Source: an uncultured beta proteobacterium
GTDB taxonomy: Bacteria; Pseudomonadota; Gammaproteobacteria; Burkholderiales; Burkholderiaceae_C
DNA length: 38,430 nt
Direction: 5' to 3'
Assembly (NCBI GenBank): GCA_903951445.1
Contig: CAJBBZ010000286.1
Span: 1 to 38,430 of the forward strand
Shown: piece by piece, positions 14,694 through 29,767 of the stretch
Layout: the number at the start of each line of letters is the position of its first letter
How positions within the stretch are numbered: position 1 is the stretch's first letter
Notes under the pieces: generated by a model
Database searches by the model: none
Told to the model about the DNA's origin: nothing
The model's input: only the letters and a program-made list of their open reading frames with translations
Position numbers and translations under genes: made by a program

Positions 14694-15587
14694 CTAGCTA
14701 AAAAGCTGCCCGCGCGCGGCATCGGTAATGGCCAGCACACAAGGGTGTGTGATGCGCCGCTCCACTGAAACAGCAAAGAATTCTTCGACCAGTTCATCGC
14801 TGCGTCCGACACATTGCACCCCGAATTGGGAAGCCGTTTCCTGCTCCATCACTCTGGGCACCATGAACACGCCTCGGCCCTCGCGCCCGAAAGCGGTCAT
14901 CAGCGCGCCGTCGTCAAATTCACCGATCACGCGGGGTGCGATGTTGTGGCGGGTAAACCAGGATTCGAGTTGCTGGCGTATCGAGGCCTGCGCGCCCTGG
15001 ATCAGCAAAGGCGCCGCATTCAGACAATCGGGAAATGGGCCCTGTAAGCTGGCCGCCACTGCCGCTGTACACATAAAGGACATGCTGCTTCGCCCCAAGG
15101 GGTGGTTGAAGGCACGCACATTGATGCGCCGCGACATGGGCTCGTCGGCGATCACCAGGTCGAGACGGTTCAGTGCCAATTGAGATAAAAGGTCGGGGAA
15201 TTTGCCTTCGCTACACGCCATGCGCACCGGCGCAGGCACCGCCAAGGCCGGCTCTAACAAGCGGTAGGCCACCGATTTATTCACCGAATCGGCCACGCCG
15301 ACCCGAAACTCCAGCACCCGCGCACCACCATGGGCCTGGCGCACCGCCGATTCCATTTCATTGCCCAGGGTAAATATCTGGTCGGCATAGCCCAGCGCCA
15401 GGCGTCCGTGTTCGGTCAGCTCCAGGTTGCGCCCGCTTTTCTTAAAGAGCTTGCGGCCCAGCCAGTCTTCCAGCAGATGAATCTGCCCCGAAAGCGTTTG
15501 TGGCGTGGTGTGCAATTGCTCGCCAGCGCGCATTACACCGCCGGATTTGGCGGTTACCCAAAAGTAATAAAGGTGTTTAAAGTTCAT
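14694..15587 (-). CDS. nhaR: LysR family regulator, NhaR type
   Basis: A 297-residue LysR-type regulator. The N-terminal helix-turn-helix starts MNFKHLYYFWVTAKSGG and continues through TTPQTLSGQIHLLEDWLGRKLF, which is the NhaR signature rather than a generic LysR start. The effector-binding domain follows from about residue 90. In E. coli NhaR activates the nhaA sodium/proton antiporter gene in response to Na+; no antiporter gene is in this window, so the target here is uncertain. The ATG at 15587 is chosen over a non-conserved upstream extension. It is divergent from an IscR-like gene; the shared 182-bp region has a perfect inverted repeat. Confidence 0.85.
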   Translation of the reverse strand: MNFKHLYYFWVTAKSGGVMRAGEQLHTTPQTLSGQIHLLEDWLGRKLFKKSGRNLELTEHGRLALGYADQIFTLGNEMESAVRQAHGGARVLEFRVGVADSVNKSVAYRLLEPALAVPAPVRMACSEGKFPDLLSQLALNRLDLVIADEPMSRRINVRAFNHPLGRSSMSFMCTAAVAASLQGPFPDCLNAAPLLIQGAQASIRQQLESWFTRHNIAPRVIGEFDDGALMTAFGREGRGVFMVPRVMEQETASQFGVQCVGRSDELVEEFFAVSVERRITHPCVLAITDAARGQLFS

Positions 15588-15630
15588 TGCTAGCCTTTGC
15601 ACATGCTGATATTCAGGGGGAAGGTGCTCC

Positions 15631-15657
15631 ATTCACTTCGTAATTATCGAAGTGAAT
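15631..15657. promoter_or_regulatory. Perfect inverted repeat, probable operator
   Basis: ATTCACTTCG (15631-15640) and CGAAGTGAAT (15648-15657) are exact reverse complements around TAATTAT. The centre TTCG-N7-CGAA also satisfies the LysR T-N11-A rule. It lies 44 bp upstream of the nhaR start codon and ends 16 bp before the -35 box of the divergent IscR-like gene. Binding by NhaR or by the Rrf2 protein is the obvious hypothesis; neither is shown. Confidence 0.65.
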
Positions 15658-15769: not shown

Positions 15770-16282
15770 ATGCGATTAAGTACCCGTGGCCGTTTTGCGA
15801 TCAACGCCATGATTGACCTGGCCCTGCGCCAGCCCGATTGCCCGGTGGCGCTGAGCGAACTGGCCGCGCGCCACGGCATCTCGCTTTCCTACCTGGAGCA
15901 GGTTTTTGCGAAGTTACGCCAACACGGTCTGGTGGAGAGCACCCGCGGCCCGGGTGGCGGCTACACACTGGGCTTCCGTGGCGACGCCATTTCGGTGGCC
16001 GACATCGTGACGGCGATTGAAGAGGCCACCCCCGTGACGGAGGGTGCCCAAGGCGATATGACCCACGCCCTTTGCGAGCAATTGCACCACGCCATGTTGG
16101 AACACATGAAAACCATTAGCCTGCGCGGCCTGGCCTTAGAGCAAAAAGCCAAGGGCTTTCAAGTGCAAGCGCGCAAGCCGGGCAAAAAAGCCCTGCTCAA
16201 GCAAGCGGCACCCACGCTATCCCGGCCCAACGCACCCAACTCGGTATTTGCCTTGGGCAGCTGGTTGCCGACACGGGCCTAA
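15770..16282 (+). CDS. Rrf2/IscR-like transcriptional regulator lacking the Fe-S cysteines
   Basis: A 170-residue Rrf2-family regulator. The winged helix is clear: RLSTRGRFAINAMIDLAL, ISLSYLEQVFAKLRQHGLVESTRGPGGGY, then the dimerisation helix from about 75. E. coli IscR binds a [2Fe-2S] cluster through C92, C98, C104 and H107. Here the equivalent segment (TPVTEGAQGDMTHALCEQL) keeps the THAL histidine (H99) but has no cysteine before it; the only cysteines are C24 and C102. It therefore probably works as a cluster-free regulator. No isc genes follow. The C-terminal 40 residues are basic and look disordered. AAAGGA is 6 bases before the ATG at 15770. Confidence 0.85.
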   Translation: MRLSTRGRFAINAMIDLALRQPDCPVALSELAARHGISLSYLEQVFAKLRQHGLVESTRGPGGGYTLGFRGDAISVADIVTAIEEATPVTEGAQGDMTHALCEQLHHAMLEHMKTISLRGLALEQKAKGFQVQARKPGKKALLKQAAPTLSRPNAPNSVFALGSWLPTRA

Positions 16283-16464: not shown

Positions 16465-17778
16465 TTACTTCTGGTAAGAGATGCGGTACACCGCACCGGC
16501 TTTGTCATCGGACACCAAAATGGAGCCGTCCACATACTGCTGCACGTCCACCGGACGGCCTAGGTAGTAGCCTGCTGCCGTCATCCAGCCTTCAGCAAAG
16601 GGTTCGGTTTTGGCCGCATTGCCTTTGTCATCCAGGTAAGTAACCATGACGCGTGCGCCACGCGGCTTAATGGCATTCCAGGAACCGTGCTGCGCGCTGA
16701 AGATGGCGTTCTTGTACTTGGCGGGGAACTGGTCGCCGGTGTAGAACATCATGCCCAGATCGGCTGCGTGGGCGATCATTTCAACTTGGGGTTTGACGTA
16801 ATGGTCCGTCATGTCCTTGGGGATGGGCTTGCCTTTGTAGTCGTCGGTACGTACATCACCACCGCCATAGTAGGGGTGGCCATACCAGCCGCCTTTTAGC
16901 AACTTGCCGCCCGCGGACGGGATCTTGTTGAGCTCGCCGGGAGGCGTTTCGTCACCCATGCCGTCCACCTGGTTGTCGGTAAACCACAGGCTGCCGTCTT
17001 TGGGATTGAATGCAAGGCCCGAAGAATTGCGCACACCGGTAGCGATCACTTGGCGGTCACCGCCATCACGGTTAAAGCTCAGGATAGAGCCAATGCCCAA
17101 TTTACGGTACATGTCCACTTTTTCGGCCGGCGTTACGTTGAAGGGCTGGCCCATGGTGATGTACAGGCGGTTATCTGGGCCAATGGCGCAGGCGCGTGCA
17201 GTGTGGTTGTAAGACTCTTCTTCGGCAGGAATCAGGTCGCCCTGTTTGACCACGGCAAAGGCCACGGTGTCCGAGCCTTCGGTGAAATACTCCACCGCAG
17301 GGAACATCATGACGCGGTTGCGTTCCACCACGTACATAAAGCCGTCTGTCGTGTAGCAGACGCCAGCAGGGATGTCGAACTTGACGCTGGGGCTGAAGTC
17401 TTCCACGGTGTCCGCCACGTTGTCCATATCGCGGTCATTGGCGAAATAGACATTGTTTTTGCGGGTACCGACCCAAACGGCGGCGGTATTGCGGCTCACG
17501 GCAATCGTGCGGGCGTCCGGCACGATGGCAAAGACCTCAATCTTGAAGCCGTCAGGCAGCTTGACGTTGGTCAGCATCTTCTTCAGATTGGCCATGTACG
17601 TCGGGTCTTGCGCAATGCGCTTGGGTGGCGGGGTGTTGGTTTTCTTGAAAGCGCCGAGTTTGTCCAGGTTGGCCTCGTCGCCAGCTGCAAAGCCTGCGCC
17701 AGAAGTCAGGGAAAAGGCCAGGCCGATGGCCAAGCAAGTCGCGCTGCGCCGCATGAGGGCGCCGATGGTTGTAGTCAT
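16465..17778 (-). CDS. PQQ-dependent sorbosone dehydrogenase-like enzyme (paralog B)
   Basis: A 437-residue secreted quinoprotein with the soluble six-blade beta-propeller fold of sugar/sorbosone dehydrogenases (GSDH/AA12-like). The signal peptide is about residues 1-32 (basic MRRSATC, hydrophobic core, GAGFA). Family landmarks are KLPDGFKIEVFA, GPDNRLYITMGQPFN, RNSSGLAFNPKDGSLWFTDNQVDG, AHAADLGMMFYTG, and near the C-terminus AQHGSWNAIKPRGARV and LVSDDKAGAVYRI. It would oxidise a sugar or aldehyde in the periplasm and pass electrons to a cytochrome. The ATG at 17778 starts the signal peptide; the longer upstream frame is not credible. It lies downstream of a cytochrome c gene and a close paralog. 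Confidence 0.85.
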   Translation of the reverse strand: MTTTIGALMRRSATCLAIGLAFSLTSGAGFAAGDEANLDKLGAFKKTNTPPPKRIAQDPTYMANLKKMLTNVKLPDGFKIEVFAIVPDARTIAVSRNTAAVWVGTRKNNVYFANDRDMDNVADTVEDFSPSVKFDIPAGVCYTTDGFMYVVERNRVMMFPAVEYFTEGSDTVAFAVVKQGDLIPAEEESYNHTARACAIGPDNRLYITMGQPFNVTPAEKVDMYRKLGIGSILSFNRDGGDRQVIATGVRNSSGLAFNPKDGSLWFTDNQVDGMGDETPPGELNKIPSAGGKLLKGGWYGHPYYGGGDVRTDDYKGKPIPKDMTDHYVKPQVEMIAHAADLGMMFYTGDQFPAKYKNAIFSAQHGSWNAIKPRGARVMVTYLDDKGNAAKTEPFAEGWMTAAGYYLGRPVDVQQYVDGSILVSDDKAGAVYRISYQK

Positions 17779-18052
17779 GGGGGGTCCGATACAAAGAAGC
17801 CGGGCTTGTTGACTGCTTTTGTGCAGTGACCCGACGGCACCAAACCCAGCATGAGGATCCACGCAGGCAGCACGTGGGCCCACTCTAGTACGTGACCTTA
17901 CAAATTAAGGGGTGATTACCCTTGGTAGCACATCAAGAAAATTCATGCCTTACCTGAATATTGATCCCCGCAGCGGGGCCATCCGAGCCCGGCGCGGCAA
18001 GATTGGGCGCGTAATCCGGCGGCTTCAGGGCAAAGGGCGCCGGGGCGCAGTC

Positions 18053-18364
18053 CTATTTCACTTCCACTTTGATGGAGTTGTACCAAGCCGCCAGGTCTTC
18101 GATATCAGCGTTGCTCAGAGGCTTGGCAATAATGCTCATGATCTCGTTTTGGCGCTTGCCGCTGCGGTAAGCACGCATTTGCTCAATCAGGTATATCAAG
18201 GGCTGGCCTGCCAAATTAGGCGCTTCATTCAAGGTGGACATTCCGTTGAGGCCGTGGCAAGTAGCACAAGGCATGGATTTGGCCTTGCCTGCGTCGGCAT
18301 CTCCCGCCCAAACGGTTTGGCCCAGTGTTGCAGCCACAAGCGCCAGGGGAATTAGGAATTTCAT
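18053..18364 (-). CDS. Small periplasmic class I cytochrome c
   Basis: A 103-residue protein with a signal peptide (residues 1-20, cleavage after VWA) and one heme c site, C33-A-T-C36-H37. M76 (NEIMS) is the likely sixth iron ligand. The C-terminal helix IEDLAAWYNSIKVEV is typical of small c-type cytochromes. Placed between two PQQ dehydrogenase genes on the same strand, it is very probably their electron acceptor, passing electrons on to the respiratory chain. A strong terminator sits only 28 bases upstream of its ATG, so it relies on readthrough or on a promoter overlapping that hairpin. Confidence 0.9.
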   Translation of the reverse strand: MKFLIPLALVAATLGQTVWAGDADAGKAKSMPCATCHGLNGMSTLNEAPNLAGQPLIYLIEQMRAYRSGKRQNEIMSIIAKPLSNADIEDLAAWYNSIKVEVK

Positions 18365-18391
18365 AGTGTCAGCATCTCATTAAATTTGCAT

Positions 18392-18423
18392 AAAAAAACG
18401 GGCCGGGCACAACGCCCAGCCCG
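18392..18423 (-). terminator. Strong terminator between the dehydrogenase and cytochrome c genes
   Basis: CGGGCCGGGC (18399-18408) and GCCCAGCCCG (18414-18423) form a 10-bp stem with one mismatch and a 5-nt loop. Read on the minus strand, TTTTTTT follows directly (18392-18398). It stands 17 bases after the stop of the upstream dehydrogenase and 27 bases before the cytochrome c start, so it could set the ratio of the two products. Confidence 0.85.
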
Positions 18424-18440
18424 CCCGGAGTCAAAGAAGT

Positions 18441-19763
18441 TTACTTCTGGTAAGTGATGCGATAGACCGCACCCGCTTTGTCGTCAGACACCAGGATAGA
18501 GCCATCGACGTACTGCTGCACGTCCATGGGGCGTCCCAGATAGAAGCCCGAAGCAGTCATCCAGCCCTCTGCAAACGGCTCGTGCTTGGAGGCATTACCT
18601 TTGTCGTCCAGGTAGGTCACCATGACGCGCGCGCCACGTGGCTTGACCGCATTCCAGCTGCCGTGCTGGGCGCTGAAGATGGCGTTCTTGTACTTGGCAG
18701 GGAACATATTACCGGTGTAGAACATCATGCCCAAGTCAGCAGCGTGCGCAATGGTCTCCACTTGCGGCTTGATGTATTTGTCAGCCAACTCTTTGGGGAT
18801 TTGCTGGGCTTTGTAGTCGTCAGTGCGCACATCACCACCGCCGTAGTAGGGGTGTCCGTACCACAGGCCGTGGGTCAGTTTGCCATCGGCGCCCACTGGC
18901 ACTTTATTCAGCTCGCCGGGAGGGGTTTCGTCGCCCATGCCGTCCACTTGGTTGTCAGTCCACCAGAGGGACTTGTCCTTAGGGTTAAAGGCCAAGCCGG
19001 AGGAGTTACGCAGACCCGTGAGCACCACTTTGCGATCGCCGCCATCGCGGTTAAAGCTTACGATGCCACCGATGCCGACCTTGTTGTACAGGGCTTGCTT
19101 TTCAGGAGGCGACACATTGAAAGGCTGGCCCAGGGTGATGTAAATGCGGTTATCCGGTCCGATGGTGCAAGCACGTGCAGTGTGGTTGTAAGACTCTTCG
19201 TCCGCTGGGATCAGGTCACCCTGCTTCACCACAGCAAAGGCCACAGTGTCCGAACCTTCGGTGAAGTATTCCACCGCAGGGAACATCATGACGCGGTTGC
19301 GTTCCACCACATACAGGAAGCCGTCGTCGGTGTAGCACAGGCCGTGGGGAATATCAAACTTCACGCTGGGACTGAAATCTTCAACGGTATCGGCCACGCC
19401 GTCCATGTCGCGGTCATTCGCGAAATACACGTTGTTCTTACGGGTGCTGATCCATACCGCTGCGGTATTGCGGCTGACGGCAATAGCGCGCGCGTCGGGG
19501 GCGATGGCAAACAGCTCAATCTTGAAGCCATCAGGCAACTTGATGTTGGTGAGCATCTTTTTCAGGTTGTCGGCGTAGACGCCCCCTTGAGCAAACTTCT
19601 TGGGAGGTGGGGTATCTGTACGCTTGAACGAACCGAGTTTTTGCAGGTTGGCTGAATCGGCGCCAACCTGGGCAAAGGCGCTACCTGCCCCCAGACTGAA
19701 GGCCATACCAATTGCCAGAGAGGTTGCTGTACGACGCACTAATTTGCGCAGGATGTGATTCAT
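18441..19763 (-). CDS. PQQ-dependent sorbosone dehydrogenase-like enzyme (paralog A)
   Basis: A 440-residue secreted quinoprotein, closely similar along its whole length to the paralog at 16465-17778 (most residues identical by eye, including GDLIPADEESYNHTARAC and the C-terminal DKAGAVYRITYQK block). The signal peptide is residues 1-31, ending in GAGSAFA. The family and role are as for paralog B: a periplasmic PQQ-dependent sugar or aldehyde dehydrogenase. The ATG at 19763 follows GGAG with good spacing. It is the promoter-proximal gene of the set and is divergent from the PqqU-type receptor gene, with 308 bp between starts. The substrate is unknown. Confidence 0.85.
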   Translation of the reverse strand: MNHILRKLVRRTATSLAIGMAFSLGAGSAFAQVGADSANLQKLGSFKRTDTPPPKKFAQGGVYADNLKKMLTNIKLPDGFKIELFAIAPDARAIAVSRNTAAVWISTRKNNVYFANDRDMDGVADTVEDFSPSVKFDIPHGLCYTDDGFLYVVERNRVMMFPAVEYFTEGSDTVAFAVVKQGDLIPADEESYNHTARACTIGPDNRIYITLGQPFNVSPPEKQALYNKVGIGGIVSFNRDGGDRKVVLTGLRNSSGLAFNPKDKSLWWTDNQVDGMGDETPPGELNKVPVGADGKLTHGLWYGHPYYGGGDVRTDDYKAQQIPKELADKYIKPQVETIAHAADLGMMFYTGNMFPAKYKNAIFSAQHGSWNAVKPRGARVMVTYLDDKGNASKHEPFAEGWMTASGFYLGRPMDVQQYVDGSILVSDDKAGAVYRITYQK

Positions 19764-20071
19764 ATTTTCTCCAATGGTCTAATCATCCGGGCGGATCCGT
19801 CACAAACAGCCACCCCGGAAGCGCCTAACCCCGCATGAACAACTCAAACAGGCAGCGCTTGAAGGCACTTTACTTTTTAGGGAAATTTGTTCCATAGTGA
19901 AAACCCTAGGTTTGAAGATACTCTGGCTATCTATTAATTCAGCCCTTATTTGAAAAAATTTTCAAACCGGTTTCCATGCGTGCAACCCTAGAATAAAGTT
20001 CGAATGACCACGGCAGGCAGGCCTTTCGTACGGTCTGCATCCGCCACCCACCCCATTTGGAGCAGTGCTTT
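19764..20071. promoter_or_regulatory. Divergent control region of the PQQ locus
   Basis: This 308-bp region separates the start codons of dehydrogenase A (minus) and the PqqU-type receptor (plus). Its centre is clearly AT-rich. It contains TTTGAAAAAATTTTCAAA (19949-19966; 8-bp arms around AA), overlapping the 10-bp palindrome AAACCGGTTT (19964-19973). GGAG at 20059-20062 serves the receptor ATG. No clear Fur box was found. No promoter pair was strong enough to assign. Confidence 0.5.
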
Positions 20072-22195
20072 ATGCCTCAACTTTTGCGCTCTGGCTTATG
20101 CCTGGCCGCTATTACAAGCCTTGGATTTGCACCCGCCTATGCGCAGCAATTAGAGGAAGTGGTCATCAGCGCATCACGCGCGGAAATGCGAAGCTTTGAT
20201 GCGCCCGCTGCGGTTCAGCGTATCGACCGCCAAGCTATCGAGGGCGGTGGCCCGCAGATTAATTTGTCCGAATCGCTGGTCCGCGCACCGGGCCTGACCA
20301 TCCTGGAGCGGCAAAACTACGCCCAGGATTTGCAAATCTCCATCCGCGGCTTTGGCGCACGTTCCGCCTTCGGCGTGCGGGGCATCCGCCTGCTGATCGA
20401 TGGCATCCCGGCTACAACGCCCGATGGGCAAGGCCAGTCCTCCTCGGTCAGCCTGACCTCCACCGACCGTATTGAGGTGTTGCGCGGGCCCTTGGCGCAA
20501 CTGTATGGAAATTCGTCTGGCGGCGTGATCCAGGCCTTCACCAAAGACGCCTCCAAAGTGCCGACGGTGGGATACCAGTACTACCTGGGCTCGTACGGCA
20601 TGCACCGGGCCGACTACCAGTTCTCGGACACGATTGATGGTTATGGGCTAGTCGCTGACTACGGCACGTTTTCTACCAGCGGCTACCGCGCCAACAGCGC
20701 CGCAGAGCGCAATCAGTTCAACGGCAAGCTGAGCTTTGAGCCCAATGCACAAACCAAAGTCAATGTGGTTTTCAATCGCTTTGACATGCCGCTGGCGCAA
20801 GATCCGCTGGGCTTGAACAGCGATGACAGCACTAAAAATCCGACAAAGGCGGGTACCGACGCAACCACTTATTCCGTGCGAAAAATTGTGTTGCAAAACC
20901 AATTGGGCAGTTCACTGAAATACGATTTAGGAAACGATCAGTCGCTATCGGCGCGCGCCTACTATGGCACGCGGGATAACACCCAATTCCAAACTGCGAG
21001 CAGCGGTAGTTGGGTTGGCTTGAATCGAGCCTATTACGGCACAGGGCTGCAGTACAACGGGCGTGGCCAATGGCAGGGAACCCCTTTGGAATGGGCTGCA
21101 GGCTATGAGCTCGACAAGTCCTCTGAACGCAGAAAAGGCGGCTTGAGCTCATCGGGCGAAAAAAAGCCTAATTCACTCACGCGTGATGAAGACAATGAGG
21201 CTCAAAACAGCGACTTTTTTATACAGGCAACCGCTCATGTATCCGATCAAATCTCTTTGGTAGGGGGCTTGCGCCAGAGTAATGTTACCTTCAACAGCAA
21301 AGACTACATCCCCGCTACAAATACAGACAAAGATGGCTCAGGTACGGCCAATTTCATCGCAACCAGTCCGGTGCTTGGCGTGACTTGGCACGCAAACGAT
21401 ACCCTGAATATCTACGCAAATTACGGCCAAGGTTTCGAGAGCCCTACGCTGGCGGAAATGGCTTATTCTGTGAAAAATAGCGTATTCGTCAATACCTTTA
21501 ACACGGATGTCAAGGCCGCCAATAGCAAGCATTATGAGATAGGAGCGAAGTGGGTACCAGCGCGCAATTCTCGTGTAGACCTTGCCTTGTATCAAATTGA
21601 TACCAACGACGAAATTGTTGTGCTTTCAAGTAGTTTTGGTAGAAATTCCTTTCAAAATGCTCCAAGCACATCACGCACGGGTTGGGAAGTTGCAGCAACC
21701 ACGCAATTCAGTGAACATATTGCCGCCAGCATTTCAACATCTGCGATTGATGCAAAGTATTCGCAAGAATTCATTTCTAATATTTCTAATCCTGCTACTA
21801 AGAAAACAATACCGTCGGGAAGCAAAATACCGGGCATTCCTGACACCTCAACCTTCGCAGAAATAGCTTGGACCAGCGAGACTGTTACACCTAAAACTAA
21901 AACTCCCTTGGGTACCCGGGTGGCGTTGGAGTGGCAACAAGCTGGGCGCATTTTTGTAGACGATCTAAACAATAAAGCTCCGCCCACTGAAGTGCGCAAC
22001 GTTTTCAACTTGTCGCTCAGCCAGCGCTGGGCCTGGAATCAGGGCCTGGTCACCGCCTACGGTCGCATCAACAACCTGAGCGATGTTCGGTACATAGGCT
22101 CTGTTATTGTCAATCAGGCAGCTAGCCAGTTCTACGAACCCGCCATGCCCCAAAACTGGATGCTGGGATTGAGCCTGAGCATGCCTTTGCGCTGA
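20072..22195 (+). CDS. pqqU: TonB-dependent receptor, PqqU (YncD) type
   Basis: A 707-residue outer-membrane receptor. The signal peptide is residues 1-24 (ending AYA), and the TonB-box-like EEVVISA follows. The plug has INLSESLVRAPGL, RQNYAQDLQISIRGFG, VRGIRLLIDGIPATTPDGQG and VLRGPLAQLYGNSSGG; the 22-strand barrel ends with VGSVIVNQAASQFYEP before the final strand. These segments closely match what I recall of E. coli YncD, now PqqU, which imports pyrroloquinoline quinone with TonB. Length is also close (about 700). The ATG at 20072 has GGAG upstream; a TTG at 20057 is less likely. Divergence from two PQQ dehydrogenases supports the assignment. About 21170-21960 is more AT-rich than the flanks. 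Confidence 0.88.
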   Translation: MPQLLRSGLCLAAITSLGFAPAYAQQLEEVVISASRAEMRSFDAPAAVQRIDRQAIEGGGPQINLSESLVRAPGLTILERQNYAQDLQISIRGFGARSAFGVRGIRLLIDGIPATTPDGQGQSSSVSLTSTDRIEVLRGPLAQLYGNSSGGVIQAFTKDASKVPTVGYQYYLGSYGMHRADYQFSDTIDGYGLVADYGTFSTSGYRANSAAERNQFNGKLSFEPNAQTKVNVVFNRFDMPLAQDPLGLNSDDSTKNPTKAGTDATTYSVRKIVLQNQLGSSLKYDLGNDQSLSARAYYGTRDNTQFQTASSGSWVGLNRAYYGTGLQYNGRGQWQGTPLEWAAGYELDKSSERRKGGLSSSGEKKPNSLTRDEDNEAQNSDFFIQATAHVSDQISLVGGLRQSNVTFNSKDYIPATNTDKDGSGTANFIATSPVLGVTWHANDTLNIYANYGQGFESPTLAEMAYSVKNSVFVNTFNTDVKAANSKHYEIGAKWVPARNSRVDLALYQIDTNDEIVVLSSSFGRNSFQNAPSTSRTGWEVAATTQFSEHIAASISTSAIDAKYSQEFISNISNPATKKTIPSGSKIPGIPDTSTFAEIAWTSETVTPKTKTPLGTRVALEWQQAGRIFVDDLNNKAPPTEVRNVFNLSLSQRWAWNQGLVTAYGRINNLSDVRYIGSVIVNQAASQFYEPAMPQNWMLGLSLSMPLR

Positions 22196-26571: not shown

Positions 26572-28350
26572 CTAAATACCACCGCCCGATAAAAGCAGCG
26601 CCGGATTGTCCGAGGCCATCACGCGCTGCGCCCAAGGCGCCAGGCGCTTGACGTCGGCGCGCAATATTTCCTGCTTGACCGCCAGTATCTGCGCCGGGTG
26701 CATGGAAAAACTGCGCAGCCCCATGCCCAGCAGCAGGCGGGTGAGGCTGACATCACCGGCCATTTCGCCGCACACGCTTACCTCTTTGCCTTGCTTGTGG
26801 CCTTCGGCAATCGTGGCCGCGACCAATTGCAAGATGGCGGGGTGCAGCGGGTCGTACAAATGCGCTACCGATTCATCTGCACGGTCAATAGCCAGGGTGT
26901 ACTGGATCAGGTCATTGGTGCCTATGGACAAAAAGTCAAAATATTTCAAAAACAGTGGCAGGGTCAAAGCTGCGGCCGGTATTTCAATCATGGCACCCAC
27001 TTTTATCGGACCATAGGCCAGACCGCGCTTGTCCAACTGCTTGCGCGCAGTTTCGATATGCGCAAAGGTTTGCTTGATCTCCGAGGCGTGCGCCAGCATG
27101 GGTATCAGCAAATGCACCTGCCCAAACGCAGCGGCGCGCAAGATCGCACGCAACTGGGTCAGAAACATCGCCGGGTCGGCCAGGCTCCAGCGGATAGCGC
27201 GCAAGCCCAGCGCGGGGTTGAGGTGTGCTGCGTCATGGGTGCTGGCATCGAGCGGTTTGTCGGCACCCACATCGACGGTGCGTATGGTGACGGGCAGCCC
27301 GTGCATATCCTGCACCGCGCGCTGGTAAGCCGCAAATTGCTCTTCCTCATCCGGCAAATTCCCGCGACGCCCCATAAACAAAAATTCGCTGCGAAAAAGC
27401 CCTACGCCCAGCGCCCCAGCTTTGAGCGCCACTTGCGCGTCTTCGGGCATTTCGATATTGGCCAACAACTGGATTTTTTCACCATCGAGTGTGACGGCGG
27501 GTGTATTGAGCAGGCGCGCGAGGCGGCCGCGCTCTAGCTCCAACTGGCGTTTTTTGAAGCTGTATTCGGCCAAGATGATGGGCGAGGGATCGACGATGAC
27601 CACGCCGGCATCGCCGTCAATAATGATCCAGTCATCCTGGCGCACCAACTGGCTGCAAGTGCGCGCACCGACCACCGCAGGAATGTCCATGCTGCGCGCC
27701 ACAATGGCGGTGTGCGAGGTCTTACCGCCGACATCGGTGATGAAACCGGCGAACACGCTTTGCTTGAATTGCAGCATGTCGGCAGGCGACAAATCATGTG
27801 CCACCAAAACCAAGGGCACATCCACCGTGTCATCGAGCAACAAGTCGTGTGCCGGGTTTTTCGGGGTGCTGCGCGGCGACACCGCGACGGGGTTGGCCAC
27901 GCCGCGCATAGCGCGCAATATGCGCTCTACGATTTGCTCCAAGTCCCCCTTGCGTTCTCGCAAATACGGGTCTTCCATTTCATCGAAATTGCGCACAATC
28001 ACATCCAACTGGGCGGTCAGCGCCCATTCGGCGTTGTATAAGCGCTCCACAATCCAACGCTTAATTCCCGCTTCCAACTCAGTGTCTTGCAAAAGCATTA
28101 AGTGCACATCGAGCAAAGCGCCTAATTCTTGGGGCGCGTCTTTGGGGCTCATCTGCGAAATACTCAATTGCAGGCGCTGCAACTCCTCCACCACCTGGTT
28201 ACGCGCTGCGCGGAGCCGCTTGATTTCCGCCTCCACGTCGGTCTGGCGTATAAAGTAATGCGCTACGTCCATACGGCTGGAAGCCACCAGCACCGCCCGG
28301 CCAATGGCCACGCCGCGGGATACCGCCAGTCCGTGGATGGAAAAAGTCAT
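26572..28350 (-). CDS. ptsI: Phosphoenolpyruvate-protein phosphotransferase (PTS enzyme I)
   Basis: A 592-residue cytoplasmic enzyme I. It takes phosphate from PEP onto H213 (GGKTSHTAIVARSMD) and passes it to HPr. The N-terminal HPr-binding and phosphohistidine domains occupy about 1-240, and the PEP-binding barrel follows with LFRSEFLFM, RTVDVGADKPL, LGLRAIRWSL, IGTNDLIQYTLAIDR and the active-site Cys in VCGEMAGD. The length is typical. It is the last gene of an EIIA-HPr-EI set without sugar permeases, so this PTS is probably regulatory. The ATG at 28350 lies 20 bp after ptsH. Confidence 0.95.
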   Translation of the reverse strand: MTFSIHGLAVSRGVAIGRAVLVASSRMDVAHYFIRQTDVEAEIKRLRAARNQVVEELQRLQLSISQMSPKDAPQELGALLDVHLMLLQDTELEAGIKRWIVERLYNAEWALTAQLDVIVRNFDEMEDPYLRERKGDLEQIVERILRAMRGVANPVAVSPRSTPKNPAHDLLLDDTVDVPLVLVAHDLSPADMLQFKQSVFAGFITDVGGKTSHTAIVARSMDIPAVVGARTCSQLVRQDDWIIIDGDAGVVIVDPSPIILAEYSFKKRQLELERGRLARLLNTPAVTLDGEKIQLLANIEMPEDAQVALKAGALGVGLFRSEFLFMGRRGNLPDEEEQFAAYQRAVQDMHGLPVTIRTVDVGADKPLDASTHDAAHLNPALGLRAIRWSLADPAMFLTQLRAILRAAAFGQVHLLIPMLAHASEIKQTFAHIETARKQLDKRGLAYGPIKVGAMIEIPAAALTLPLFLKYFDFLSIGTNDLIQYTLAIDRADESVAHLYDPLHPAILQLVAATIAEGHKQGKEVSVCGEMAGDVSLTRLLLGMGLRSFSMHPAQILAVKQEILRADVKRLAPWAQRVMASDNPALLLSGGGI

Positions 28351-28370
28351 GTTGGTAAGACCTTGGCGGC

Positions 28371-28640
28371 TTATTGGCCTTCGCCAAAACGATCGGCCAA
28401 CAGCGCCAGCAGTGCGTCCATGGCCTCTTGCGCCTGCTCGCCTTCGGTCTCAATGCTGATCTCGGAGCCCAGCCCGGCGGCGAGCATCATCACGCCCATG
28501 ATGCTTTTTGCATTAACCCGACGCTCGCCTTTGCTGATCCAGATTTCACAAGGGAAGCTGCCGGCCAGTTTGGTCAGCTTGGCCGAAGCGCGGGCATGCA
28601 AACCGAGTTTGTTGCTGATGGTGGCGTTAACTTGAATCAT
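28371..28640 (-). CDS. ptsH: Phosphocarrier protein HPr
   Basis: An 89-residue HPr. The phospho-acceptor histidine is in NKLGLHARAS (H15), and the regulatory serine region is NAKSIMGVMML, where HPr kinase phosphorylates Ser46 in organisms that have it. HPr relays phosphate from enzyme I to EIIA. The ATG at 28640 begins the conserved fold, only 4 bp after the stop of the EIIA gene, so the three genes are almost certainly one operon. Confidence 0.95.
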   Translation of the reverse strand: MIQVNATISNKLGLHARASAKLTKLAGSFPCEIWISKGERRVNAKSIMGVMMLAAGLGSEISIETEGEQAQEAMDALLALLADRFGEGQ

Positions 28641-28644
28641 GGGC

Positions 28645-29055
28645 TCAGGCAGGTTGGGTGAGTGGGGGCGAAGGGGCGACTTCTACGATACATTGGGTGC
28701 CGCCTGCAAGCGCGCGCGCCAGCAATGCGTCCATGGACTCATAGCGGTAATTCACAGTGCGCAGCAGCATGGGTAAATTTACCCCGGCGACTAATTTGCA
28801 TTGCTGCCCATCGACTGCTTTTTGCGCAATATTGCAAGGCGTGGCACCTAGGACGTCCGTCAGTACCAACACTGAATGTTCGGCGCTAGCCTGCAAGCTG
28901 GCCTGCACCCGCTGCTGCGTCGCTTCCGGCGCCTCATCGGGCAGCACATCCACCGCGCGCAGACTATCGGCCACTTCTGGGAACACATGCAAAACGCAAC
29001 TGCGCAAGGCGCTGGCAAGCGGCGCATGGGCGATGATCAAAATATCGATGGGCAT
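28645..29055 (-). CDS. PTS EIIA component, mannose/fructose (EIIA-Man) family
   Basis: A 136-residue cytoplasmic EIIA protein. The start MPIDILIIAHAPLASAL carries the phospho-acceptor H10; LTDVLGATPCNIAQ and VAGVNLPMLLRTVNYR are the other conserved blocks. The ATG at 29055 is chosen; the long frame reaching 29298 upstream is not homologous. In Burkholderiales this EIIA with HPr and EI forms a regulatory phosphorelay linked to carbon storage and metabolism rather than sugar import; no EIIB or EIIC gene is present here. Often gshB lies upstream in relatives; here the upstream gene is a lipoprotein-like protein. Confidence 0.9.
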   Translation of the reverse strand: MPIDILIIAHAPLASALRSCVLHVFPEVADSLRAVDVLPDEAPEATQQRVQASLQASAEHSVLVLTDVLGATPCNIAQKAVDGQQCKLVAGVNLPMLLRTVNYRYESMDALLARALAGGTQCIVEVAPSPPLTQPA

Positions 29056-29167
29056 GAATTCGTGTCGGAAGTCTTGCCCGATTATGCGTGTTCCCGATGA
29101 AACCGCGTGCGGCGCTTGCGCCTTGCAAAGGGCTTTTAAGCCGCACCTGCGGCAAGCGCGTCTGCGA

Positions 29168-29767
29168 CTATTGCCATTGCATGGCGCTGAAAAACGGCTC
29201 CTCCATCTCAGCGCGGATTGCGGGTGCATACAAGGCCCAATGGTAAATATCGCGGTCGCGCTGCACCCAGATCCAACGCGCTTGCACCGCTTGTCCACGC
29301 GGGTTGGTCCCGCTGGCCTGGTACACCGTCAGCGCCGGTCGTGCTCCAAGCGCTGCTAATGGGCTTGCCACCGGCGCCGCGGTGGCGCGCATGGTCTGCA
29401 AAGCTTGGTCACGCCAGGCATCGATAAGCGGCTGGGCTTGTGCACCCTGCGCAAGTCGAAGGTGGCTAATGGCATACAGGCCGCCGTCGGCTTCGCAACC
29501 AGCCATGGATAGGTTCAAGTCCAGGCTGGCTAACTGCACTGGGCGCTGCGCCTGGTCGGGTTTGCAAGGCAAAGTGGCCTGCACGCCTTCCAGCGTCACG
29601 CTGCGCCAATTCAGCGCTGGGCTGCAAGCGCACAGCAACAGGCACAACGCCAGCACTCGGATGGCACTTGCGCGCCCACGAGCCGGGATTTCCGATAGGC
29701 TGCTTTTGATTGGCAACCTTGCTATCGACAAAGTATTAGGTACTCGCTTATTGCCTGAAATTGTCAT
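29168..29767 (-). CDS. Lipoprotein-like protein of unknown function
   Basis: Up to 199 residues, not assignable to a known family. A hydrophobic segment RVLALCLLLCAC ends in a lipobox-like LLCAC, so this is probably a lipoprotein. The mature part has LEGVQATLPCKPDQAQRPVQL, an isolated MAGCEADGGLYA segment with a cysteine that could pair with the one in LPCKP, and ends in AEMEEPFFSAMQWQ. The start is uncertain: the ATG at 29767 overlaps the cytochrome c' gene by 20 bp and gives an unusually long leader, while TTG codons at 29731 or 29716 would give a shorter one. It lies between cytochrome c' and the PTS genes on the same strand. Confidence 0.65.
   Translation of the reverse strand: MTISGNKRVPNTLSIARLPIKSSLSEIPARGRASAIRVLALCLLLCACSPALNWRSVTLEGVQATLPCKPDQAQRPVQLASLDLNLSMAGCEADGGLYAISHLRLAQGAQAQPLIDAWRDQALQTMRATAAPVASPLAALGARPALTVYQASGTNPRGQAVQARWIWVQRDRDIYHWALYAPAIRAEMEEPFFSAMQWQ

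Follow-up and report, generated by a model that had tools for sequence, protein, structure and literature searches.

A predicted pyrroloquinoline quinone-scavenging oxidation module beside a PqqU-type receptor gene in a Burkholderiales bacterium

The Escherichia coli receptor PqqU (YncD) reportedly scavenges external pyrroloquinoline quinone (PQQ), as Hantke and Friz are said to have described in 2022. Here we analyse a locus on contig CAJBBZ010000286.1 of an uncultured Burkholderiales bacterium (assembly GCA_903951445.1; the whole stretch of 38,430 nucleotides is called the window), in which a pqqU gene stands divergent from two genes for predicted PQQ-dependent dehydrogenases of the AA12 type, with the gene for a small c-type cytochrome between the two. 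PqqU, its role in PQQ scavenging and its wide spread have been published, and the consulted part of that survey (Munder et al. 2025, PMC12124388) reports that about a third of the genomes with PqqU have no known PQQ enzyme, and suggests an unidentified enzyme or an antioxidant role for them. The PQQ enzymes were identified there by a profile from earlier work and checked against PF01011, PF13360 and PF13570 (PMC12124388); the family of the window dehydrogenases, PF07995, is not among these three Pfams.

The window resembles the E. coli system in the importer family and its key ligand residues, in the apparent inability to produce PQQ, and in the presence of putative periplasmic quinoprotein clients. 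In E. coli K-12, the gene that stands divergent from pqqU is yncE, and yliI, which encodes the aldose sugar dehydrogenase, lies elsewhere, whereas in the window two predicted client enzymes, of AA12 type, and a cytochrome adjoin pqqU. In the K-12 locus (L284:5964-9369), yncE is annotated as a PQQ-like domain protein, and its divergence from pqqU parallels the window layout. Four Burkholderiales genomes also have a local cluster around pqqU, but with a PQQ biosynthesis operon, according to the consulted part of the survey (PMC12124388), unlike the window, where pqqU lies beside the presumed consuming enzymes in an apparent non-producer. On the enzyme side, the closest described proteins are the pyranose dehydrogenase of Coprinopsis cinerea (CcPDH) and the AA12 enzyme of Trichoderma reesei (TrAA12). 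The window enzymes differ from these in being bacterial, with about 20% identity, and in having no fused cytochrome; a separate small c-type cytochrome gene is present instead. D-glucosone, L-fucose and D-arabinose are among the sugars on which CcPDH is active. Bacterial AA12 homologues were already noted in 2014, in the part of that article consulted (PMC4133262). The soluble glucose dehydrogenase of Acinetobacter calcoaceticus and the aldose sugar dehydrogenase of E. coli (Asd, YliI) are likewise six-bladed PQQ sugar dehydrogenases, and E. coli Asd has a His, an Arg-Asn pair and a C-terminal Arg in common with the window dehydrogenases.

We consider it very probable that this is a dedicated PQQ-scavenging oxidation module in a bacterium unable to make PQQ itself. 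With energy from TonB, PqqU would gather trace PQQ made by other organisms and bring it through the outer membrane. Once in the periplasm, PQQ would load together with Ca2+ into the two paralogous soluble six-bladed dehydrogenases, which would oxidise a reducing sugar or a related aldehyde. The electrons would go to the small cytochrome whose gene lies between theirs, and from there into the respiratory chain. An inner-membrane PQQ transporter would be unnecessary, because the dehydrogenases are expected to work in the periplasm.

A PqqU-type receptor and its predicted clients

The receptor finds its best solved chains in E. coli YncD (6v81, E = 4.5e-109) and PqqU (9c4o, 3.5e-108), with the next match only at 5e-11, and its plug aligns with that of YncD without a gap. 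NCBIfam NF041535 (PqqU) is by far its best-scoring model, at 462 bits. The plug motifs quoted in the initial annotation are present, and the C-terminal motif, IGSVIVN...YEP, differs in one residue from the VGSVIVN given there. The published PqqU signature, as stated in the consulted part of the survey, comprises an aromatic residue at Y99, where F is allowed, together with R304 and R365 (PMC12124388); the corresponding residues of the receptor are F105, R306 and R359, in the numbering of the frame that begins at TTG. In the same numbering the binding-residue set Q90, F105, Q127, K276, R306, Q310, Q312, R359 and R529 is present. The accessory E. coli residues K274, R536, Q84, Q121, Q308, Q310 and Y481 are kept, and the position of N477 is occupied by A. 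The signature occurs in 137 of 138 homologues from the same bacterial family, a comparison from which two partial frames were left out, and the remaining homologue lacks its N-terminus.

Among six E. coli receptors, only PqqU carries the signature, which is missing from BtuB, FepA, FhuA, FecA and CirA. In a quick tree with long outgroup branches, built from 69 of the 151 rows of the residue alignment, the receptor and E. coli PqqU share a starred branch that excludes these five (Shimodaira-Hasegawa-like approximate likelihood ratio test support, 99). The receptor thus sides with PqqU in the comparison that the initial annotation had proposed, and a siderophore, B12 or haem receptor was rejected on the signature residues and the tree. 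By its residues, the receptor is a PqqU, a predicted TonB-dependent outer-membrane importer that would bind and transport PQQ.

The two dehydrogenases are 82% identical and are sisters in the enzyme tree (119 rows, from which enzyme-relative loci already represented were left out), so they derive from a duplication. Pfam GSDH (PF07995), a broad model, is the sole enzyme-family model above its cut-off, and the specific name of sorbosone dehydrogenase, used in the initial annotation, is unsupported beyond it. Single-sequence phmmer searches returned chance propeller matches and a weak AA12 match, and the assignment was settled by profile and structure comparison. For the dehydrogenase model, the titles of the 16 best rows all name an AA12, pyranose, glucose or sugar dehydrogenase; the four AA12 entries head the list, more than 10 Z units over the first row not titled dehydrogenase. 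The modelled protein is a six-bladed propeller closest to CcPDH and TrAA12, and the dehydrogenases are more like the fungal AA12 pyranose dehydrogenase than the soluble glucose or aldose sugar dehydrogenases.

The PQQ ligands of CcPDH, as listed in the part of its description consulted, are R273, R430, N431, H539, H560, W563, N564 and R621, with H363 as the catalytic residue. R252/N253, H340, H367, W370, N371 and R411 of the window dehydrogenase were aligned directly to 6jt5 by profile, and H340, H367, W370 and N371 pair with CcPDH H539, H560, W563 and N564. These four are kept in 105, 103, 105 and 103 of 105 close relatives, and R411 in 104 (one gap). R92 and H194, placed by motif, are kept in 103-105 of them, as is every ligand position, and dehydrogenase 2 has the same ligand residues as dehydrogenase 1. 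D274, placed by motif alone as the equivalent of D451 in the Ca2+ site, is invariant at the expected position. Of the PQQ and Ca2+ ligands on which the initial annotation depended, the AA12-type PQQ-ligand set is present in the model, and D274 is a candidate for the Ca2+ ligand. The cytochrome is most likely the electron acceptor of the dehydrogenases.

The genome offers no other evident use for imported PQQ. In the assembly of 3.61 Mb (294 contigs, 99.33% complete, 3.7% contaminated), PqqD (PF05402) and PqqC (TIGR02111) were not found, PqqA, PqqB and PqqE not having been searched one by one, and no pqq gene was seen among the 30 window frames scanned with Pfam, which are part of the window's frames. 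The bacterium thus appears, from its gene content, unable to make PQQ. No eight-bladed PF01011 gene was detected in the genome at E <= 1e-30, the single site with PF13360 matches is BamB (TIGR03300 above its cut-off), and besides the window pair no gene like dehydrogenase 1 was detected even at E <= 10. With PqqC, PqqD and any PF01011 gene missing, the two dehydrogenases are the only PQQ clients found. A mis-binned contig is unlikely, because the same contig bears ribosomal proteins S3 and L2. Named relatives point to the Burkholderiales as the order of the bacterium. The proposal of the initial annotation, a dedicated unit that imports PQQ made by others for periplasmic oxidation, largely holds in the light of the receptor, the enzymes, the missing PqqC and PqqD and the linkage described below. 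The absence of pqqA-E that it noted in the window agrees with the frames scanned; its call for a genome-wide search is answered for PqqC and PqqD, the other three not having been sought individually.

Recurrence of the pairing across genomes

PqqU is carried by 142 of 250 genomes of the family and an enzyme relative (E <= 1e-20) by 98. We read up to 8.8 kb on each side of pqqU at 140 of the 146 PqqU places; the other six had no GSDH on the same contig among the matches listed. An enzyme gene lies in the flank of 22 of the 140 loci, the window included, compared with about 0.7 expected by random placement, an estimate made without regard to contig ends. Genes in the high-GC loci were called mechanically, and some of the calls extend too far. 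The usual layout is enzyme, cytochrome c and pqqU in this order on one strand, and by a strict scan 13 of the 22 loci, or 14 with L072, have a haem site between pqqU and a co-directional enzyme gene upstream of it. The enzyme gene is divergent in the window, L068, L127 and L153, and L067 and L071 have a divergent enzyme gene in addition to a co-directional one; of the 22 loci, the window alone has a cytochrome gene with an enzyme gene on either side. The conservation asked for by the initial annotation is thus found for the pairing, which recurs beyond chance, but not for the divergent arrangement, a minority variant: strict conservation of the window's own layout is unsupported, the co-directional triplet being commoner. 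Since the linked enzymes fall in several separate clades of the enzyme tree, the pairing seems to have arisen more than once. In L072, a haemerythrin-domain gene (PF01814; 2679-3161) lies between pqqU and a di-haem cytochrome adjoining the enzyme gene, and scores just under the cut-off of the bacteriohaemerythrin model.

The enzyme also follows the PQQ-related genes at the level of whole genomes, with an odds ratio of 18 for co-occurrence over the 250 genomes. PqqU or PqqC is present in 93 of the 98 enzyme carriers versus 63 of the 152 non-carriers, PqqC itself being above its cut-off in 59 of the 250 genomes. With one genome per genus, the only repeat in which phylogeny was considered and for which the genus was taken from handle order, the counts are 53 of 56 carriers versus 34 of 85 non-carriers. 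Where the relative is at least 46% identical, 36 of 37 genomes have PqqU or PqqC; the one with neither is 74% complete. The association is weaker in a class-wide sample (29 of 57 carriers versus 15 of 191 non-carriers).

The same genomes bear on the PqqU carriers that seem to have no client. In the family, 48 of the 142 PqqU carriers have no eight-bladed enzyme, and 26 of these 48 have an AA12/GSDH-type enzyme, which is present in 5 of 95 genomes that lack both PqqU and an eight-bladed enzyme. Neither enzyme type is found in 22 of the 142. Class-wide, the AA12/GSDH-type enzyme occurs in 3 of 8 PqqU carriers without an eight-bladed enzyme. A member of one cluster of eight-bladed quinohaemoprotein alcohol dehydrogenases lies in the flank of 23 of the 140 PqqU loci (for example L087, L091, L101, L103 and L107), a count in which other eight-bladed clusters may be missed, and none of these 23 loci is also linked to GSDH. 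The chances appear about even that a major class of PqqU clients, the AA12-type six-bladed dehydrogenases with a small cytochrome c of their own, has been overlooked.

Beyond the family, a scan of named genomes gave the 80 best enzyme loci, which come from alpha-, beta- and gammaproteobacteria. In 57 of them the enzyme gene adjoins a co-directional c-type cytochrome frame by a strict criterion (same strand, 80-259 aa, CXXCH within the first 90 residues, no more than about 440 bases away), so the enzyme and the cytochrome look like the core unit. No consistent catabolic partner was found among the neighbours of these loci that could serve as a clue to the substrate. In Thioalkalivibrio sp. HK1 (L233; Ectothiorhodospiraceae), a close AA12-like enzyme gene has an adjacent cytochrome c. 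The consulted part of the 2025 survey places PqqU without a PQQ enzyme in the Ectothiorhodospirales, and also in Nitrosomonadaceae and Arenimonas (PMC12124388).

Alternative readings and the origin of the locus

Several observations weigh against a dedicated module. Only six of the 80 named enzyme loci have a flanking pqqU, which in L266 is more than 7 kb away. The nearest enzyme relatives, a seven-row sister set comprising Ferrovum (74%), a Burkholderiaceae metagenome-assembled genome (MAG) and alpha- and gammaproteobacterial MAGs, have no pqqU in the available flanks, several of which end early at contig ends. Five genomes of named loci were searched (four from the sister set plus Methylobacterium, three of them holding only 1.0-1.6 Mb), and PqqU was found in one (L206, 31% identical); linkage conserved among the closest relatives was thus not found in the available flanks or in the genome searches. 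Both genus-mates sampled lack pqqU as well as the enzyme genes. Class-wide, 28 of the 57 enzyme carriers have neither PqqU nor PqqC. The relatives in these 28 genomes are 29-44% identical, save one short fragment at 55%, and as a yardstick 10 of 44 class-wide carriers of eight-bladed enzymes also lack both genes; the remoter members may therefore not use PQQ, or may acquire it by diffusion. The genome-wide non-producer status is read from PqqC and PqqD, PqqA, PqqB and PqqE not having been searched separately. The Ca2+ ligand and the catalytic His were placed by motif and alignment rather than from a holo structure, and the receptor score lies under the NF041535 equivalog cut-off of 1200 bits, which seems to be set for much nearer relatives of E. 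coli PqqU.

One alternative is that a true PqqU and a GSDH-cytochrome pair came to be neighbours by chance or through the history of gene transfer, without functional coupling. This fits the closest relatives of the enzymes, which have no pqqU in their available flanks, and the base composition: GC is 0.545 and 0.528 in the two 2-kb bins from 18001 versus 0.587 for the window. Because GC is reduced at 18-22 kb and the genus-mates have neither gene, the segment was probably acquired, and acquisition as a block would fit. In the PqqU clade that includes the window receptor, the linked members have enzymes of other clades, and the pairing in the window thus seems to have been put together from separate sources. 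Chance neighbourhood is nevertheless hard to reconcile with 22 linked loci among 140 where about 0.7 would be expected, with linked enzymes spread over several separate clades, with the co-occurrence across the 250 genomes, and with the fact that the only PQQ clients found in an apparent non-producer sit at the importer, and we regard it as improbable.

Another reading is that the six-bladed proteins are lactonase-like or structural propellers that bind no PQQ, and that PqqU serves some other client. The motif-based placement of the Ca2+ ligand leaves some room for this; the near-invariance of the PQQ-ligand residues in 105 close relatives, the lead of the AA12 matches in the model comparison, the PqqU or PqqC present in 93 of 98 family carriers and the cytochrome frame adjacent in 57 of 80 loci make it quite improbable. 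A different ligand for the receptor, such as a siderophore, another redox molecule, or a substrate or product of the enzymes, for example a rare sugar, would suit the versatility of TonB receptors, the A at the N477 loop position and the score under the equivalog cut-off. Against it, the signature residues and the K274 and R536 equivalents are all kept, F at 99 is accepted by the signature in the consulted part of the survey (PMC12124388), and the five other E. coli receptors lack the residue set, so that we judge such a ligand most improbable. Collectively, the evidence favours a PQQ importer coupled to its own oxidation enzymes.

Locus layout and meaning for PQQ scavenging

All four genes of the initial annotation were found in place (Table 1), and the divergence of the receptor from two dehydrogenases with a small cytochrome c between them is borne out by coordinates and strands. 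From the divergent gap outwards, the minus strand carries dehydrogenase 1, cytochrome c and dehydrogenase 2, and the receptor lies on the plus strand. GGAG precedes the receptor ATG at 20072. For dehydrogenase 2, ATG 17778, which stands ahead of a signal-peptide-like stretch, is the likelier start.

Table 1 Features of the pqqU locus in the window
Feature	Position	Strand	Remarks
pqqU, TonB-dependent receptor (P0004)	20072..22195	+	707 aa from ATG; open frame 20057-22195 begins at TTG
Dehydrogenase 1 (P0003), AA12-like GSDH, six-bladed, predicted PQQ-dependent	18441..19763	-	440 aa, signal-peptide-like start
Cytochrome c (P0002), small, mono-haem	18053..18364	-	103 aa, one CXXCH, signal-peptide-like start, Pfam Cytochrom_C PF00034
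Dehydrogenase 2 (P0001), six-bladed, predicted PQQ-dependent	16465..17778	-	Frame opens at 17883
Divergent intergenic region	19764..20071		GC 0.474; between receptor and enzyme-cytochrome-enzyme string
Hairpin, G+C-rich, T tail	18396..18426	-	14 pairs; between dehydrogenase 1 and cytochrome c

The divergent gap contains a perfect palindrome with 8-bp arms (19949-19966), one of only two in the window with arms of 8 and a spacer of 0-4, which is a candidate shared operator through which the two sides may be co-regulated; the promoter scan scored no sigma-70-like site in the gap. The hairpin between dehydrogenase 1 and the cytochrome is a possible attenuator that may reduce expression of the cytochrome relative to dehydrogenase 1, and is kept as a candidate only because the nine terminator-like sites overall are not above shuffles (7.8, standard deviation 3.5). 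Just beyond dehydrogenase 2 ends a gene for an Rrf2-family regulator (15770-16282, plus strand), IscR-like but under the cut-off of that model, and adjoining it is a LysR-type gene (14694-15632, minus strand) that exceeds the NhaR cut-off. PTS (phosphotransferase system) enzyme I, HPr and an EIIA-man component lie in a row at 26572-29298 on the minus strand, a small set that is perhaps regulatory. A cytochrome b561-family protein (PF01292; 30371-31066, plus strand) is encoded 8 kb downstream, with no sign of a link to the module.

In searches of the open-access literature, we found no report of an enzyme, cytochrome c and pqqU module. What is new here is this module, together with a hint that PqqU clients of AA12 type have been overlooked. 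If so, this class would explain many of the PQQ importers that the published survey left without a PQQ enzyme. The locus offers a specific enzyme class next to the importer as a testable candidate, in a genome that yielded no other client. It would also provide a compact bacterial importer-enzyme-acceptor system for the AA12 type, which the consulted sources describe for fungal enzymes. If the class is indeed overlooked, enzyme, cytochrome c and pqqU in this order would make up a portable module, put together on more than one occasion, that gives PQQ-driven respiration to non-producers. The locus may also serve as a genetic marker by which to follow cofactor sharing in communities.

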